From Chromatiales bacterium (lineage in GTDB: Bacteria; Pseudomonadota; Gammaproteobacteria; JAGRGH01), in the NCBI GenBank assembly GCA_020445605.1, contig JAGRGH010000027.1, positions 1-64,000 on the forward strand: a stretch of 64,000 bases of DNA, in the 5' to 3' direction. Positions 4,012-64,000 of the stretch are shown piece after piece. The first letter of the stretch is position 1, and each line of letters starts with the position of its first letter. The translations under genes were made by a program, and so were the position numbers. The notes under the pieces are model-generated. The model did not search any database. It was not told the DNA's origin and worked only from the letters and a program-made list of their open reading frames with translations.

Positions 4012-5070
4012 TCACGCGCGCCGCCGAAATTCGGCCTGCTCAGCCGGACCGCCACCGGAGAGATCGTTCGTTGCCCCGGTGGACTGCGCAGCGGCCCAGG
4101 CCTCGCCGAACAACTCCGCGCCGACCCCTTCGCGATGTGCATGCTCGCTGAGGTACCGCCGCCAGATGCGTGCCCCGGGCATGCCGTGCAGAAGTCCCAC
4201 GATGTGGCGGCTCAACGCGCCAAGACGCGCGCCATGCGCGAGCTCTGCACGTGCGTAGTCCGCATACGCCTCCATCACCTCGCGCGGCGAGCGCACGGGC
4301 GAGTGATCGCCGAAGAACAGGCGGTCGACCTGCGCCAGCAGATAAGGCCTGGCATAGGGCGCACGCCCGAGCATCACGCCATCAAGTGCGGGGCCGTCTG
4401 GGTCGTCGTCGAGGAATGCGAGCGCCTGCTCCAGCGTCTCGATTCCGCCATTGACGACAACCGTCAGGTGCGGAAACAGCGCCTTGAGCTGACGCGCGCG
4501 CTCGTAGCGTAATGGCGGCACCGTGCGATTCTCGCGGGGACTGAGCCCCTGCAACCAGGCCTTGCGCGCATGCACGACGAATGTTTCGCATCCCGCGCCC
4601 GCGACCACATCCACAAAGTTGCGCAGATCGCCCCATTCGTCCTGCTCGTCAATGCCGATGCGGCATTTCACCGTGACCGGAATCCGCACCGCCGCCTGCA
4701 TGGCTGCGAAGATCTCCGCGACCAACGCTGGCTCGGCCATGAGGCAGGCACCAAAGCGACCCGATCGCACCCGGTCGCTCGGACAGCCGACATTGATATT
4801 GATTTCGTCGTAGCCGTATTCGGCGCCGATCGCCGCGGCCTCGGCCATCTGTAAGGGGTCGGCGCCACCGAGTTGCAGCGCGACCGGATGCTCCCCGGAC
4901 GCAAACGCCAGCAGATGGTCGCGATCACCGTGGATCACGGCGTTCGCAGTGAGCATCTCGGTGTACAGCCGAGCGTGACGCGAGATCAGCCGCAGCAGGT
5001 GCCGGTCGTGGCGGTCCGTGCAGTCCATCATCGGCGCGACGCAGAACCGGTGCGTGCCGGGCCTGTTCAT
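4012..5070 (-). CDS. dusA: tRNA-dihydrouridine synthase A
   Basis: This FMN-dependent enzyme reduces uridine to dihydrouridine in the tRNA D-loop (U20/U20a in DusA). The 352-residue protein begins RFCVAPMMDCTDRHDR, characteristic of DusA, and carries NVGCPSDRV and the catalytic Cys109 in RFGACLM. The FMN-phosphate site VVNGGIETLEQA and the DusA-specific helical C-terminus (HIVGLLHGMPGARIWRRYLSEHA) are present. The start at 5070 overlaps the dehydrogenase stop as ATGA. An upstream in-frame ATG at 5166 is rejected because it falls inside the neighbouring gene. Confidence 0.95.
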   Translation of the reverse strand: MNRPGTHRFCVAPMMDCTDRHDRHLLRLISRHARLYTEMLTANAVIHGDRDHLLAFASGEHPVALQLGGADPLQMAEAAAIGAEYGYDEININVGCPSDRVRSGRFGACLMAEPALVAEIFAAMQAAVRIPVTVKCRIGIDEQDEWGDLRNFVDVVAGAGCETFVVHARKAWLQGLSPRENRTVPPLRYERARQLKALFPHLTVVVNGGIETLEQALAFLDDDPDGPALDGVMLGRAPYARPYLLAQVDRLFFGDHSPVRSPREVMEAYADYARAELAHGARLGALSRHIVGLLHGMPGARIWRRYLSEHAHREGVGAELFGEAWAAAQSTGATNDLSGGGPAEQAEFRRRA

Positions 5071-6026
5071 GCGCGGACGAGATTCTCGGGCGTACCGGCC
5101 AGAAACGCGCGCAGGTTTGCGGCCGTACCATCGATCGCGCGCTGACGCGCCTCGCGGCTCGCCCACGCGGTATGCGGCGTGAGGATGAGATTCGGGATAT
5201 CCGGCGCAAGCAGCGGATGGTCGGCCGGCGGCGGTTCGCGCTCCAGCACGTCGATCGCCGCGCCGGCGATCGTGCCGGCACGCAGGGCCACTGCCAGCGC
5301 CGCGGCGTCGACGATCGCACCGCGGGCGGTGTTGATCAACACGGCATCGCGTCGCATCCGCGCGAATGCCGCCGCGCCGATCAACCCCTGCGTCTGCGCG
5401 GTCAGCGGACAGTGCAGACTTACATAGTGACTCTCGCGCAGGAGTTCATCGAGCGAAACCCGCCCGGGCGGCAGGTCCGCGCTGCCGGGCCGGGCCGCAA
5501 CGAGCACCTGCATGCCAAACGCCTCGGCGATTCGCGCAACCCCGCGCCCGAGCTCGCCGAAGCCGACGATCCCCAGCGTGCGCCCGGCGAGTTCGCCGAT
5601 CGGGTGATCGAGCATGCAGAAATGGGTGGCCGCGCTCCAGGCGCCGGCGCGCACGTCACGATCGTAGTCCTGCCAGCGCGTCGCGAACGCGAGCATCACG
5701 GCCAGCACGTGCTGCACCACGGCCGGCGTCGCATACGCGCGCAGGTTCACGACCGCGATGCCGCGCTCCGCCGCCGCGGCAAGATCGATGTTGTTGGTTC
5801 CGGTCGCGGTCACCGCGATCAGCCGCAGCAGCGGCGCGGCTTTGATCGCGGCCCGGTCGAGGACGACCTTGTTCGTCACCACGATCCGCGCGCCGGCGAT
5901 GCGCGCGGCCGTTTCGCTCGCAAAGGTTGACGCGTGCAGGGTCCAGCGCGGGTAGGCGGCCCGCAGCCGGGAAAGTTCGAGATCACCGGCATCGACGCTG
6001 CCGAGATCAAGGAAAACCGCACTCAT
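5067..6026 (-). CDS. D-2-hydroxyacid dehydrogenase (hydroxypyruvate/glycerate dehydrogenase-like)
   Basis: The 319-residue enzyme interconverts a 2-ketoacid and a D-2-hydroxyacid with NAD(P)H. The Rossmann motif GIVGFGELG is at about residues 152-160. The substrate-binding and catalytic signatures are NTARGAIVD and TPHTAW, with the His of the latter acting with an upstream Arg and Glu. The overall pattern (ATGTNNIDL, YATPAVVQH) is that of the hydroxypyruvate reductase HprA group, so glycerate dehydrogenase is the best guess, but the substrate cannot be fixed from sequence. It is first in a two-gene unit with dusA (4-bp ATGA overlap). Confidence 0.85.
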   Translation of the reverse strand: MSAVFLDLGSVDAGDLELSRLRAAYPRWTLHASTFASETAARIAGARIVVTNKVVLDRAAIKAAPLLRLIAVTATGTNNIDLAAAAERGIAVVNLRAYATPAVVQHVLAVMLAFATRWQDYDRDVRAGAWSAATHFCMLDHPIGELAGRTLGIVGFGELGRGVARIAEAFGMQVLVAARPGSADLPPGRVSLDELLRESHYVSLHCPLTAQTQGLIGAAAFARMRRDAVLINTARGAIVDAAALAVALRAGTIAGAAIDVLEREPPPADHPLLAPDIPNLILTPHTAWASREARQRAIDGTAANLRAFLAGTPENLVRA

Positions 6027-60462: not shown

Positions 60463-61560
60463 TTACTCCGCAGTCCGGGCGCGGCCCTTGCCCCGCCGCA
60501 GGCCCTTGCGCGTCAGATGCGCAGCGAGCTGCAACGGCGGCATGCGCAGCCAGTGCGAACGAACGTACAGCAGCCAGCGGGGAAAACGCACGCCGCGCGG
60601 CGCATCGGCATCGGCGACGGGCTCGATCGCACGCCGGGCAAGCGCAAGAAAGCCGGCACGGCGGACACGGTTCAGGCGTGAGGCCGGCAGCTTCGGCCAC
60701 CGGTCGCCAAGCGGGGATGTGCCGAATACCGCGCCGACGAGGTGCAGCCCGTAGTCCAGCGGACGCTCCAGTCGGTGCCGCTGCGCGCGCCCGGCCAGCG
60801 AGTCCGCAAAGCCCGCGTGGCCCATGCCCGCGACCAGCAACCCGTGCAGATCGAACACCTCGCGCAGGCGGTTGTTCAGATCGCCGTCCTGCACCAGGTG
60901 CGCACAGCAGTGCAGGACCTGGTCGGCCCGGTCCAGCACCAGCAACCCGGCCTCGCCGACCGGGCGCGCGCCGTCGAGCAGCGCCGCTGCGTCGGGATGC
61001 AGACGCCCGGTCGGCGGCAGAATCGTGTGGTGCAGATCCGCGATGGAGTTCCGCGAACGGTGCCGTAACGGCGGCAACTCGTGCATCCACTGGCGATAGT
61101 AGCGCTCGTCATACGGCGTGAGTTCCGCCTCGATCCATCCGGCGCGACGCAGGGCGGCCTCGGCAGCGGGCAGTTCGTCCTCGGCGACGAGCAGATCCAC
61201 GTCAGACACGTACCGACCAGCCGAAAACGGCAGACCCTCGGCGAAATATGCCGCCCCCTTCAGTAGAACGACTTTCGACACCTGCCCGCGCAGCGCCGCG
61301 GCAAGCTGCTCGATCTCCCAGTCGAGCATACGCGCGTATTCGTTCCCCACCCGCGTGGCGACGGCGAGCTGGCGGCGCGCGGCCGTCGGCAACTGGGCGA
61401 CAACCGTCGGCGGCACGATCGCCGCGAACCGCCCGAGCAGTCCGGCCTGACGGGTGACCCGCAGCCAGTCCTCGAGCGACCGTGGCGACATTGACGCCAG
61501 CAGGGCCGGGGCGGCAAAGGCGTCGACGATCGCCCGCACGGCTCCCATACGCATTTTCAT
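60463..61560 (-). CDS. Uncharacterised nucleotidyltransferase family protein (HPr-rel-A associated type)
   Basis: The 365-residue protein belongs to the NTP_transf_5 kind of nucleotidyltransferases. LLKGAAYFAEGLP and the metal-binding pair SDVD (about Asp120 and Asp122) form the active site, followed by AEAALRRAGW and a helical C-terminal half with many Arg residues. I chose the ATG at 61560; ATG codons two and four residues later and a GTG at 61587 are alternatives. Proteins of this family recur beside PqqD-like and HprK-related kinase A genes, both of which lie on the divergent strand here. Its substrate is unknown. Confidence 0.75.
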   Translation of the reverse strand: MKMRMGAVRAIVDAFAAPALLASMSPRSLEDWLRVTRQAGLLGRFAAIVPPTVVAQLPTAARRQLAVATRVGNEYARMLDWEIEQLAAALRGQVSKVVLLKGAAYFAEGLPFSAGRYVSDVDLLVAEDELPAAEAALRRAGWIEAELTPYDERYYRQWMHELPPLRHRSRNSIADLHHTILPPTGRLHPDAAALLDGARPVGEAGLLVLDRADQVLHCCAHLVQDGDLNNRLREVFDLHGLLVAGMGHAGFADSLAGRAQRHRLERPLDYGLHLVGAVFGTSPLGDRWPKLPASRLNRVRRAGFLALARRAIEPVADADAPRGVRFPRWLLYVRSHWLRMPPLQLAAHLTRKGLRRGKGRARTAE

Positions 61561-61774
61561 TGCGGGTCCGGAGTTGTCAAAATCCACGCCCCGGGATGTC
61601 GGATTTTTTTACACTTGCGCCAGTCCGCGTCCGGCGAAAAAGAGCCAACATACGCAAAATCATTCGCTTAGGATCCGTGGTGCGATTCTTGCTTTGTATT
61701 GTGGACACGCGCCGAAACGGCTGATACCGTGTTCGGCAACAGGATGCCCAAACGTCGCCTACAGCTCGCGAGTC

Positions 61775-62230
61775 ATGTCGAAAACCCCCACGACCAAGCA
61801 GCCGGATCAACAACCCACCGCGGACCACGTGGTGGAGTCCCGACGCAAGCTGCTGCGCGGTCTCGCCGCCGGCGTACCGGCCATCGCGACCCTGCATGTC
61901 GGCCCGAGCGCGGCGGTCAGCTTCGTAGATGGAACCGCAAAGTGCTTCAACAACATCCAGGACGCCTACACCAATAACCCGAACGTGCCGCCCCAATGTG
62001 TGACTGCGGTGCAGGCCGGCACCGAACTCCCATCTTGGATTCGCGACCCGGAAGGGAACTTCCAGGGGGGCGGTCCAATGGATATCAACGGGGACAGCGA
62101 TACCGCCGACTACTGCCTGCTGTACTTCGATGAGAACGGCAACGAGTTGCCCTCGACCGAGTTCCCGTATCAAAGCGGCGGGTATCCTATCACCGCGTCC
62201 TGCCTGACCTCGTTCGTCGTTCTCAACTGA
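61775..62230 (+). CDS. Small exported protein with twin-arginine signal and four cysteines
   Basis: I do not recognise a family. The 151-residue protein has a twin-arginine-type signal: SRRKLLRGL at residues 22-30 and a weakly hydrophobic stretch to about residue 47. The rest is acidic with four cysteines (57, 75, 114, 143) and an EF-hand-like DINGDSDTADY at 103-113. It has no lipobox and no sorting tail. The start at 61775 lacks a good ribosome-binding site. It is first in an operon with a PqqD-like protein, an HprK-related kinase and an SCO protein, and is the natural candidate for their substrate. Confidence 0.7.
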   Translation: MSKTPTTKQPDQQPTADHVVESRRKLLRGLAAGVPAIATLHVGPSAAVSFVDGTAKCFNNIQDAYTNNPNVPPQCVTAVQAGTELPSWIRDPEGNFQGGGPMDINGDSDTADYCLLYFDENGNELPSTEFPYQSGGYPITASCLTSFVVLN

Positions 62231-62249
62231 ACCAGCCGCTCGCCCGGAT

Positions 62250-62537
62250 GTGACCGCCGCAGAAGATCGCTGGCTGGGTCCATCGGCCGACCATCTCAAT
62301 TGGGCCGAATTCGACGACGAATTCTTCGTGCACCACGCACGTTCCGGGCAGACCCACATTCTGAACGCACCCGCGGCCCTGATCCTGCGCGAACTCGGCA
62401 CGCGTGCAATGAGTTTAGGCGAACTGGTCGCTGTGGTCTGCGAGCAGGCCGAGGTGAACCGCACCGATGAACTGCACGCGCAGGTTCTTGCTCACCTCAA
62501 ACAGCTGCAACAACTCGGACTCGTGCGCCATGCATGA
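62250..62537 (+). CDS. PqqD-like peptide chaperone (HPr-rel-A system)
   Basis: The 95-residue protein is a PqqD/RRE-type winged-helix domain. FDDEFFVHHARSGQTHILNAPAALIL matches that family in layout, shown here by its core SGQTHILNAPAAL; the helical C-terminus (HAQVLAHLKQLQQLGL) also fits. PqqD proteins bind leader peptides for modifying enzymes. It starts at a GTG and overlaps the kinase gene by 8 bp, so the two are coupled. Confidence 0.75.
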   Translation: MTAAEDRWLGPSADHLNWAEFDDEFFVHHARSGQTHILNAPAALILRELGTRAMSLGELVAVVCEQAEVNRTDELHAQVLAHLKQLQQLGLVRHA

Positions 62538-63492
62538 CTGGCAAACGGTCGGCAGCCTGGGCGCGGGACAATTGCGTGCGCAGCTAAAACGCGACGGAAT
62601 CGTGTTTCGTGCCGGGCCCTGGATCGTCCGCCTGCAGAGCGACGACAGCGACTTCGCGGAGCTGTTTCGCTGGATGTATTTCGAGGCACCGCTTGCGACC
62701 AGCGAGGCCTGCGCGGATATCACACTCGAACTCCGGCGCAAGCACGGCCTGCGCCGCGTCATCCGTCCGCAGATCGAACTCAAGACCGATCGCGAGGAAC
62801 TGCTGCCATTCACGCCGTTCCCGGCCGATCATGCGTTCGCCCTGTTTGAATGGGGCATGAACTGGTGCATGGCCATATCCGGCCACACGCGTTTCATGCT
62901 GCATGCGGCGGTGCTGGAACGCTACGGACGCTGCCTGATCCTGCCGGCCGCACCGGGAAGCGGAAAAAGCACCCTGTGTGCGGCGCTGGCGGTCAGCGGC
63001 TGGCGGTTGTTCTCCGATGAATTCGGGCTCATCCGGATCGACGACCTGGGCGTCGTGCCCATGCCCCGCCCGATCGCGCTGAAAAACGACTCGATCGAGA
63101 TCATCCGGCGCTTCGCGCCCAGTGCCGAATTCGGCCCCGTGTTTCCGAAGACCCGCAAGGGCGATGTCGCGCACATGCGCCCGAGCGATGCGGCCGTGCG
63201 TGCAATGGACGTCGAAGGGCAACCGGCCTGGATCGTGTTCCCGACCTGGCAGGCCGGCGCGGCCACCCGAATCGAGGCCTTTCCGCGCGGTCGCAGTTTC
63301 CTCAAGCTCACCGGGAACTCATTCAATTACATGCTGCTGGGTGCCGACGGTTTCCGTACCGCGGCCGCACTCGCCAGCTGCTGCGACTGCTACACGCTGC
63401 AATACAGCGAACTCCCGGAGGCCGTCGAGGTCATTGACCAGATCACGCGCAGCCCGATGCGCGCCAACGAGAAATCCGACGTCCAACGATGA
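62530..63492 (+). CDS. HprK-related kinase A
   Basis: The 320-residue protein is a distant relative of HPr kinase/phosphorylase. His125 in FMLHAAVLERYGR aligns with the catalytic-domain His that precedes the P-loop in HprK, and the P-loop is APGSGKST at 141-148, followed by FSDEFGLIRID. The N-terminal 100 residues differ from HprK. No HPr or other PTS gene is nearby, so the target is unlikely to be HPr. It overlaps the PqqD-like gene by 8 bp and the SCO gene by 4 bp. Confidence 0.8.
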   Translation: MHDWQTVGSLGAGQLRAQLKRDGIVFRAGPWIVRLQSDDSDFAELFRWMYFEAPLATSEACADITLELRRKHGLRRVIRPQIELKTDREELLPFTPFPADHAFALFEWGMNWCMAISGHTRFMLHAAVLERYGRCLILPAAPGSGKSTLCAALAVSGWRLFSDEFGLIRIDDLGVVPMPRPIALKNDSIEIIRRFAPSAEFGPVFPKTRKGDVAHMRPSDAAVRAMDVEGQPAWIVFPTWQAGAATRIEAFPRGRSFLKLTGNSFNYMLLGADGFRTAAALASCCDCYTLQYSELPEAVEVIDQITRSPMRANEKSDVQR

Positions 63493-64000
63493 ACCAGACC
63501 ACCTCCGCCCCCGCCCGCTGGCCATTGATTGCCGCGGCGCTGATCGCGATCGCCGTTGGTTTTCTGATAGGCCGGATGTTTCTGGACCAACCGACGCCGT
63601 TCGACGCCAACGCGCCGACCCAATGGCCGGAGCCAAAACCGCTCGCGCCCTTCGAACTGGTCAGCGACAGCGGCAAGTCATTCACCAACTCCGCACTCGC
63701 TGACCGCTGGTCATTGGTATTCTTCGGTTACACGCACTGTCCGGATGTGTGCCCGACCACGCTGTCATATCTGAACAACGTGGCCGGCAAGCTCGCCAAG
63801 GACCACACGCTGGAACGTCCGCTGCAGGTCCTGTTCGTGTCGGTCGACCCGCAACGCGACACGCCCGCGCAACTCGGCGAATACGTCCGCTACTTCAATC
63901 CGTCGTTTACGGGGCTCACTGGATCGGATTCCCAGCTCGAGGCATTCGCCCGCCAGCTCGGTTCGATCTACATGCGCATCGCGGGCTCAAGCGAAACCGA
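63489..64000 (+). CDS. SCO1/SenC-family protein (cut by window end)
   Basis: The visible 170 residues begin with a membrane anchor (about 11-30) and a thioredoxin-like domain with the CxxxC metal/redox motif Cys84-Cys88 (YTHCPDVCPTT) and SVDPQRDTP. The distal His that completes the copper site would lie beyond the window. SCO proteins deliver copper to cytochrome oxidase CuA or act as thiol reductases. The ATG overlaps the kinase stop (ATGA), so it belongs to the same operon. Confidence 0.88.
   Translation, partial: MNQTTSAPARWPLIAAALIAIAVGFLIGRMFLDQPTPFDANAPTQWPEPKPLAPFELVSDSGKSFTNSALADRWSLVFFGYTHCPDVCPTTLSYLNNVAGKLAKDHTLERPLQVLFVSVDPQRDTPAQLGEYVRYFNPSFTGLTGSDSQLEAFARQLGSIYMRIAGSSET

Follow-up and report, generated by a model that had tools for sequence, protein, structure and literature searches.

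The window analyzed here, the whole 64,000-nucleotide stretch at positions 1 to 64,000 of contig JAGRGH010000027.1 from a Chromatiales bacterium (assembly GCA_020445605.1), carries an HPr-rel-A locus in which an unnamed exported protein of 151 residues is, on sequence evidence, very probably what the accompanying kinase set chemically tags before export. The set comprises a PqqD-like protein, an HprK-related kinase and a divergently encoded nucleotidyltransferase of the NTP_transf_5 family. All three known families score above their curated cut-offs and, judged by these scores, the locus is the HPr-rel-A set of NCBIfam, spanning 60463–63492. This gene content, including a small protein with four cysteines, had been proposed in a sequence-only reading of the window, and every part of it was located. 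The small protein, hereafter the precursor, has its cysteines at positions 57, 75, 114 and 143 and a twin-arginine (RR) motif at 23–24; searches of Pfam and NCBIfam assign it to no family above cut-off.

Genome comparison strongly supports the small protein as a protein partner of the PqqD-like/kinase/transferase set. A single-sequence search with the window precursor finds only itself in 56 genomes, and the precursor family was recovered only through alignments built from locus neighborhoods: a leader profile was seeded with open reading frames (ORFs) found upstream of PqqD and then run over 106 loci, 26 from 274 genomes sampled across the class and 80 from named genomes, mostly Gamma- and Betaproteobacteria, plus Magnetococcales and two records titled Planctomycetes. 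By this profile, 96 of the 106 loci encode an RR-leader protein immediately upstream of PqqD, and such proteins are found almost nowhere else within them. The count rises to 98 with loci L127 and L081, whose precursors are below threshold or frame-broken; the frame-broken copy in L081 (about 4800–5670) belongs to a Bathymodiolus endosymbiont. In seven of the remaining eight, the locus is cut by a contig end (L055, L071, L117) or the precursor gene is displaced nearby (L077, L123, L133, L144); L069 has none.

The class-wide sample gives the sharpest contrast. The kinase is above cut-off in 26 of 274 genomes, about one in ten; the precursor is present in all 25 genomes whose locus is uncut, and a full-length match, i.e., leader plus mature part, occurs in none of the 248 others (p about 1e-35). 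Homologues living mostly apart from the kinase/PqqD pair, the outcome named beforehand as refuting the partnership, were thus not observed. Other matches are partial, either leader-only or domain-only. The former, in kinase-free genomes, are short ORFs or another Tat-type protein (HiPIP-like, L197), and those in genomes G100 and G183 adjoin more distant HprK/PqqD-like genes. The latter lack the leader: the domain of the class A precursors described below occurs in larger proteins too, e.g., a 460-residue protein of the window genome (contig C37; L203, 2771–4153), which carries it without an RR leader, as do copies in G079, G083, G098 and G214.

The precursors fall into two classes, with 64 non-redundant proteins in class A and 26, the window protein included, in class B. 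Hosts of class A loci include Massilia and Duganella. In class A, the leader is followed at once by C-x(1-3)-S-[GA]-x2-S-[GA]-N-x-S and then by a domain that contains the motifs SPGYWKN and AALLNA; the RR, the Cys and two post-leader serines (63/63 and 62/63) are essentially invariant. The class A structure model is fair (pLDDT 77.7, pTM 0.70), and its comparison with PDB folds returned no match at E ≤ 0.001. Class B proteins have a drifting middle and end in a C-terminal S-C-[LW]-x-S-[FLI] motif; those closest in form to the window precursor are L096 and L140, both from Magnetococcales. In the class B alignment (n=25), only R23, R24, P35 and S146 are invariant, with T39 and L40 nearly so. Ser146, five residues from the C terminus, is therefore the sole invariant residue beyond the leader.

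The two classes are also separated by their enzymes. In a kinase tree built without the precursors, a single branch divides A from B 64/26 (support 100/99), whereas shuffled labels need about 23 changes; the transferase tree splits them 62/25 (support 92). The PqqD tree was rejected as a test of the classes, having too few columns and 5 label changes. The split is not mere taxonomy because both classes are found within Methylococcaceae, Chromatiaceae and Sedimenticola. The agreement of the trees proves that precursor and enzymes are inherited together, and it suggests that the enzymes are fitted to the serine of their own class.

The leaders share a further feature. A Pro-x3-Thr-Leu core is present in 25/25 class B leaders and is kept more loosely in class A; it is found in none of 14 other Tat-signal leaders of the window genome, where the one pattern match (L220) lies beyond the signal. 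A core common to the leaders of the system and absent from other Tat leaders fits a second reader of this segment besides the twin-arginine translocation (Tat) machinery, and the core is proposed to be a PqqD-binding site that overlaps the Tat signal.

Both enzymes look active, judging by their intact active sites. Across 107 kinases, H125, G143, G145, K146, S147, T148, D163 and E164 are identical in every protein, and Arg180, Lys185 and Lys210 are likewise unvarying; the P-loop and HprK-type His claimed by the sequence-only reading are thus present. The kinase profile aligns with HPr kinase/phosphorylase structures (1jb1, 2qmh) at the His, the P-loop and the acidic pair, but the window kinase has Asp-Glu in place of Asp-Asp and its own N-terminal region. 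The transferase keeps K101-G102, R116 and D120-x-D122 of the nucleotidyltransferase fold, invariant or nearly so among 103 relatives, along with a further Asp and His set; the search for related solved structures gave none that was convincing.

Together, these components probably form a substrate-plus-modifier set that works as a single route. In the cytoplasm, the PqqD-like protein would bind the RR leader of the precursor at its Pro-x3-Thr-Leu core; the HprK-related kinase would then phosphorylate Ser146, and the NTP_transf_5 protein would cap or extend the Ser146 phosphate by adding a sugar or a nucleotide. After modification, the precursor would leave by the Tat pathway (TatC is encoded in the genome; PF00902, E 3e-72), an ordinary signal peptidase would remove the leader, and the protein would act at or outside the cell surface. 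The order of binding, modification and Tat export fits the anatomy of the locus and published precedents. The transferase step is the weakest of the model because LppN, the NTP transferase beside the kinase LppK in the Bacillota systems for linear polyphosphorylated peptides (LPPs), showed no activity in its test host (PMC13381572).

Several other observations count against this model. What can be read directly are the genes, their association and co-inheritance, the active sites, the invariant serine and a Tat-like leader, while binding, phosphorylation, capping and export are steps that we infer. No precursor is in reach at L069, and the L114 precursor (5379–5615) has no conserved serine. 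The window leader scores 12.2 bits against the Tat-signal model TIGR01409, under the curated cut-off of 16.7, and the structure prediction of the window precursor is unreliable (pLDDT 53.6). A [CAS]xxS[LFIV] motif in the last 26 residues occurs in 25/25 class B proteins (shuffling predicts 2.2) and in 1/64 class A proteins, but class B membership was first set partly by a C-terminal pattern; in the independently defined kinase clade, the motif is present in 25/26. Matching trees are not proof of enzyme specificity, because the members of an operon are expected to have a common history.

Three other explanations have to be weighed. The precursor may resemble that of a ribosomally synthesized and post-translationally modified peptide (RiPP), cut after modification to a short bioactive peptide instead of being exported whole. 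The middle part of class B proteins shows little conservation and has no predicted fold, L051 consists of leader and C-terminal motif alone (74 residues), a trypsin-like peptidase is found near 23–24 of the 106 loci, and LPP precursors likewise combine a conserved N-terminal part with variable C termini. However, no dedicated peptidase, cyclase or peptide transporter lies beside the window locus, and class A holds a confidently predicted domain, unlike a disposable spacer; such processing is considered unlikely. About as improbable, perhaps a shade more so, is a trio that modifies a sugar, lipid or cell-surface polymer precursor, with the leader protein as an exported partner that carries or uses the product. 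This would suit the galE-like and exopolysaccharide/exosortase-type genes that recur near some loci and the uncharacterized state of the NTP_transf_5 family, and modification of the protein precursor is itself a prediction. However, galE is present in only about 14 of 106 neighborhoods, and a PqqD-like leader-binding protein together with an invariant serine in a drifting sequence points to the precursor as the target.

A kinase targeting HPr or some other general regulator, in a set that senses carbon or phosphate status next to an ordinary Tat-exported neighbor, accords with its homology to HprK but is very improbable given the constant company of the precursor at the uncut loci of the class-wide sample, its absence in full length elsewhere in that sample, and the lack of HPr beside the locus, as the sequence-only reading had stated; HPr was rejected as the target since HPr phosphorylation is served elsewhere, by an ordinary cluster on contig C52 of the same genome (L201, 4097–6588), where HPr, PTS IIA-like, RapZ-like and HprK genes stand in a row. 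An anti-phage defense role was rejected as well: none of the four proteins matches a PADLOC family.

The features of the locus that underlie the substrate-plus-modifier model are collected in Table 1. The plus-strand genes are tightly packed, with the precursor stop at 62230 followed by the PqqD start at 62250 and an 8-nt overlap of PqqD and kinase (62530–62537); the PqqD-like protein is above cut-off for PF05402 too. On its minus strand, the intergenic region has a single sigma-70-like site (61580–61553), a consensus match only.

Table 1. Features of the HPr-rel-A locus in window coordinates.
Feature	Position	Strand	Evidence or remark
NTP_transf_5 protein, 365 aa	60463–61560	-	Divergent; Pfam PF14907, 150.5 bits (cut-off 31.2), E 8e-44
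Divergent intergenic region, 214 bp	61561–61774		55% G+C (window 67%)
Class B precursor, 151 aa	61775–62230	+	RR leader, low-conservation middle, conserved C-terminal motif ASCLTSF
Leader core, RR (23-24)...Pro35-x3-Thr39-Leu40	61841–61894	+	Conservation among 25 class B proteins
Ser146 codon TCG (checked), predicted phosphate acceptor	62210–62212	+	Invariance in class B
PqqD_rel_X, 95 aa, RRE-type leader-binding family	62250–62537	+	TIGR04353, 62.2 bits (cut-off 35), E 6.5e-17
HprK-related kinase A, 320 aa	62530–63492	+	TIGR04352, 361.5 bits (cut-off 200), E 2.3e-108
Kinase active-site residues	62902–63021	+	His125 62902–62904; P-loop GSGKST 143-148 62956–62973; Asp163-Glu164 63016–63021

The genes lie where the sequence-only reading had placed them, except that the kinase starts at 62530 and that the last 500 bases of the stretch assigned to the locus belong to a SCO1-like gene outside the set. 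That gene starts at 63489, with a 4-base overlap with the kinase, and a PCuAC-like copper chaperone gene follows (window 63489–64000; L004, 8490–9559). SCO1 and PCuAC were rejected as members of the system and treated as neighbors, as they are not among the families that recur in at least 5 of the 106 neighborhoods. Genes that do recur include one for a trypsin-like peptidase, within 6.5 kb in 23–24/106 loci, and a galE-like gene in about 14–15/106, both mostly at class A loci; exopolysaccharide/exosortase-type genes are found near some. These neighbors are hints of a surface role for the exported protein.

HPr-rel-A has been named from its genes; a substrate family and a single predicted acceptor serine are now proposed for it, and the uncharacterized NTP_transf_5 family gains a defined candidate substrate for testing. 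If the model is correct, leader-guided modification, known from small peptides, reaches larger exported proteins, and a Tat signal doubles as an enzyme-recruiting leader. More tentatively, and with somewhat less than an even chance, HPr-rel-A could be a general proteobacterial route by which exported proteins receive, via a RiPP recognition element (RRE), a sugar or nucleotide linked through phosphate; one segment would act both as enzyme-recruiting leader and as Tat signal, and of two forms of the enzyme pair, one would serve a serine directly after the leader and the other a serine at the far C terminus. More distant HprK-like kinases adjoin small proteins with an RR or KR leader, some of which end in runs of threonine (KKWTRPVVDSVVLPAHAETT...TTTT), at L061 (3237–4153), L060, L064, L067, L204 and L205; there may be a wider group of leader-protein/HprK-like pairs.

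Among known systems, HPr-rel-A itself (TIGR04352, TIGR04353, PF14907) is represented at the window locus by all three families; as named in NCBIfam it gives no substrate, and the precursor family is the addition made here. The open-license literature yielded no work naming HPr-rel-A or the HprK-related kinase, and no substrate, although an earlier description elsewhere is possible. SynChlorMet ScmC (TIGR04249) shows only a weak resemblance to the kinase (23.3 bits, far under the cut-off of 125), and no radical SAM gene was recognized in the called L004 neighborhood. A conserved-leader precursor encoded beside a PqqD-type RRE, as in RRE-dependent RiPPs generally, is present.

Two RiPP groups come closest. 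LPPs, described as restricted to Bacillota, have an RRE protein, an HprK-like kinase and an NTP transferase, the trio common to the window locus, and precursors of 35–200 residues in which the N-terminal part is conserved and the C-terminal part varies; LppK acts together with its RRE to phosphorylate Ser3 of the linear precursor, and the systems include a SipW-like peptidase, an MsbA-like exporter and a YxxP leader (PMC13381572). By contrast, the window set is proteobacterial and has a Tat-type leader; the [Y/W]xxPx[LVIFA] leader motif of lasso peptides and LPPs has no match in the 151-residue window precursor, and neither a SipW-like peptidase nor an MsbA-like exporter was recognized among the called genes of L004 (contig 55000–74000). 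Lasso peptides of the paeninodin/pseudomycoidin type resemble class B in the position of the serine near the C terminus: PsmK phosphorylates the C-terminal Ser of pseudomycoidin, and PsmN, annotated as a nucleotidyltransferase, attaches one or two hexoses to this residue (PMC9266682). They differ from the window set, whose candidate substrate is 151 residues long and has a Tat-type leader; neither a macrolactam cyclase nor a B2 peptidase was recognized among the same called genes. Lasso-peptide kinases require His-Lys-Asp-Asp (PMC9266682), whereas the fourth residue is Glu here. The window genome has, in addition, a lasso-like cluster, as judged from its genes (contig C42; L202, 1374–6693): an asparagine-synthetase-like protein (599 residues), a 54-residue peptide with a YTPPAVTRHPLE leader, and an HprK-like, PqqD-like and NTP_transf_5-like trio; no B2-type peptidase was recognized nearby. 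The modification-export system announced as new by the sequence-only reading therefore has an enzyme trio already known from paeninodin-type lasso peptides and Bacillota LPPs (PMC9266682, PMC13381572), and what is new about it is the substrate family with its predicted serine, the division into two classes, and a leader of the Tat type.

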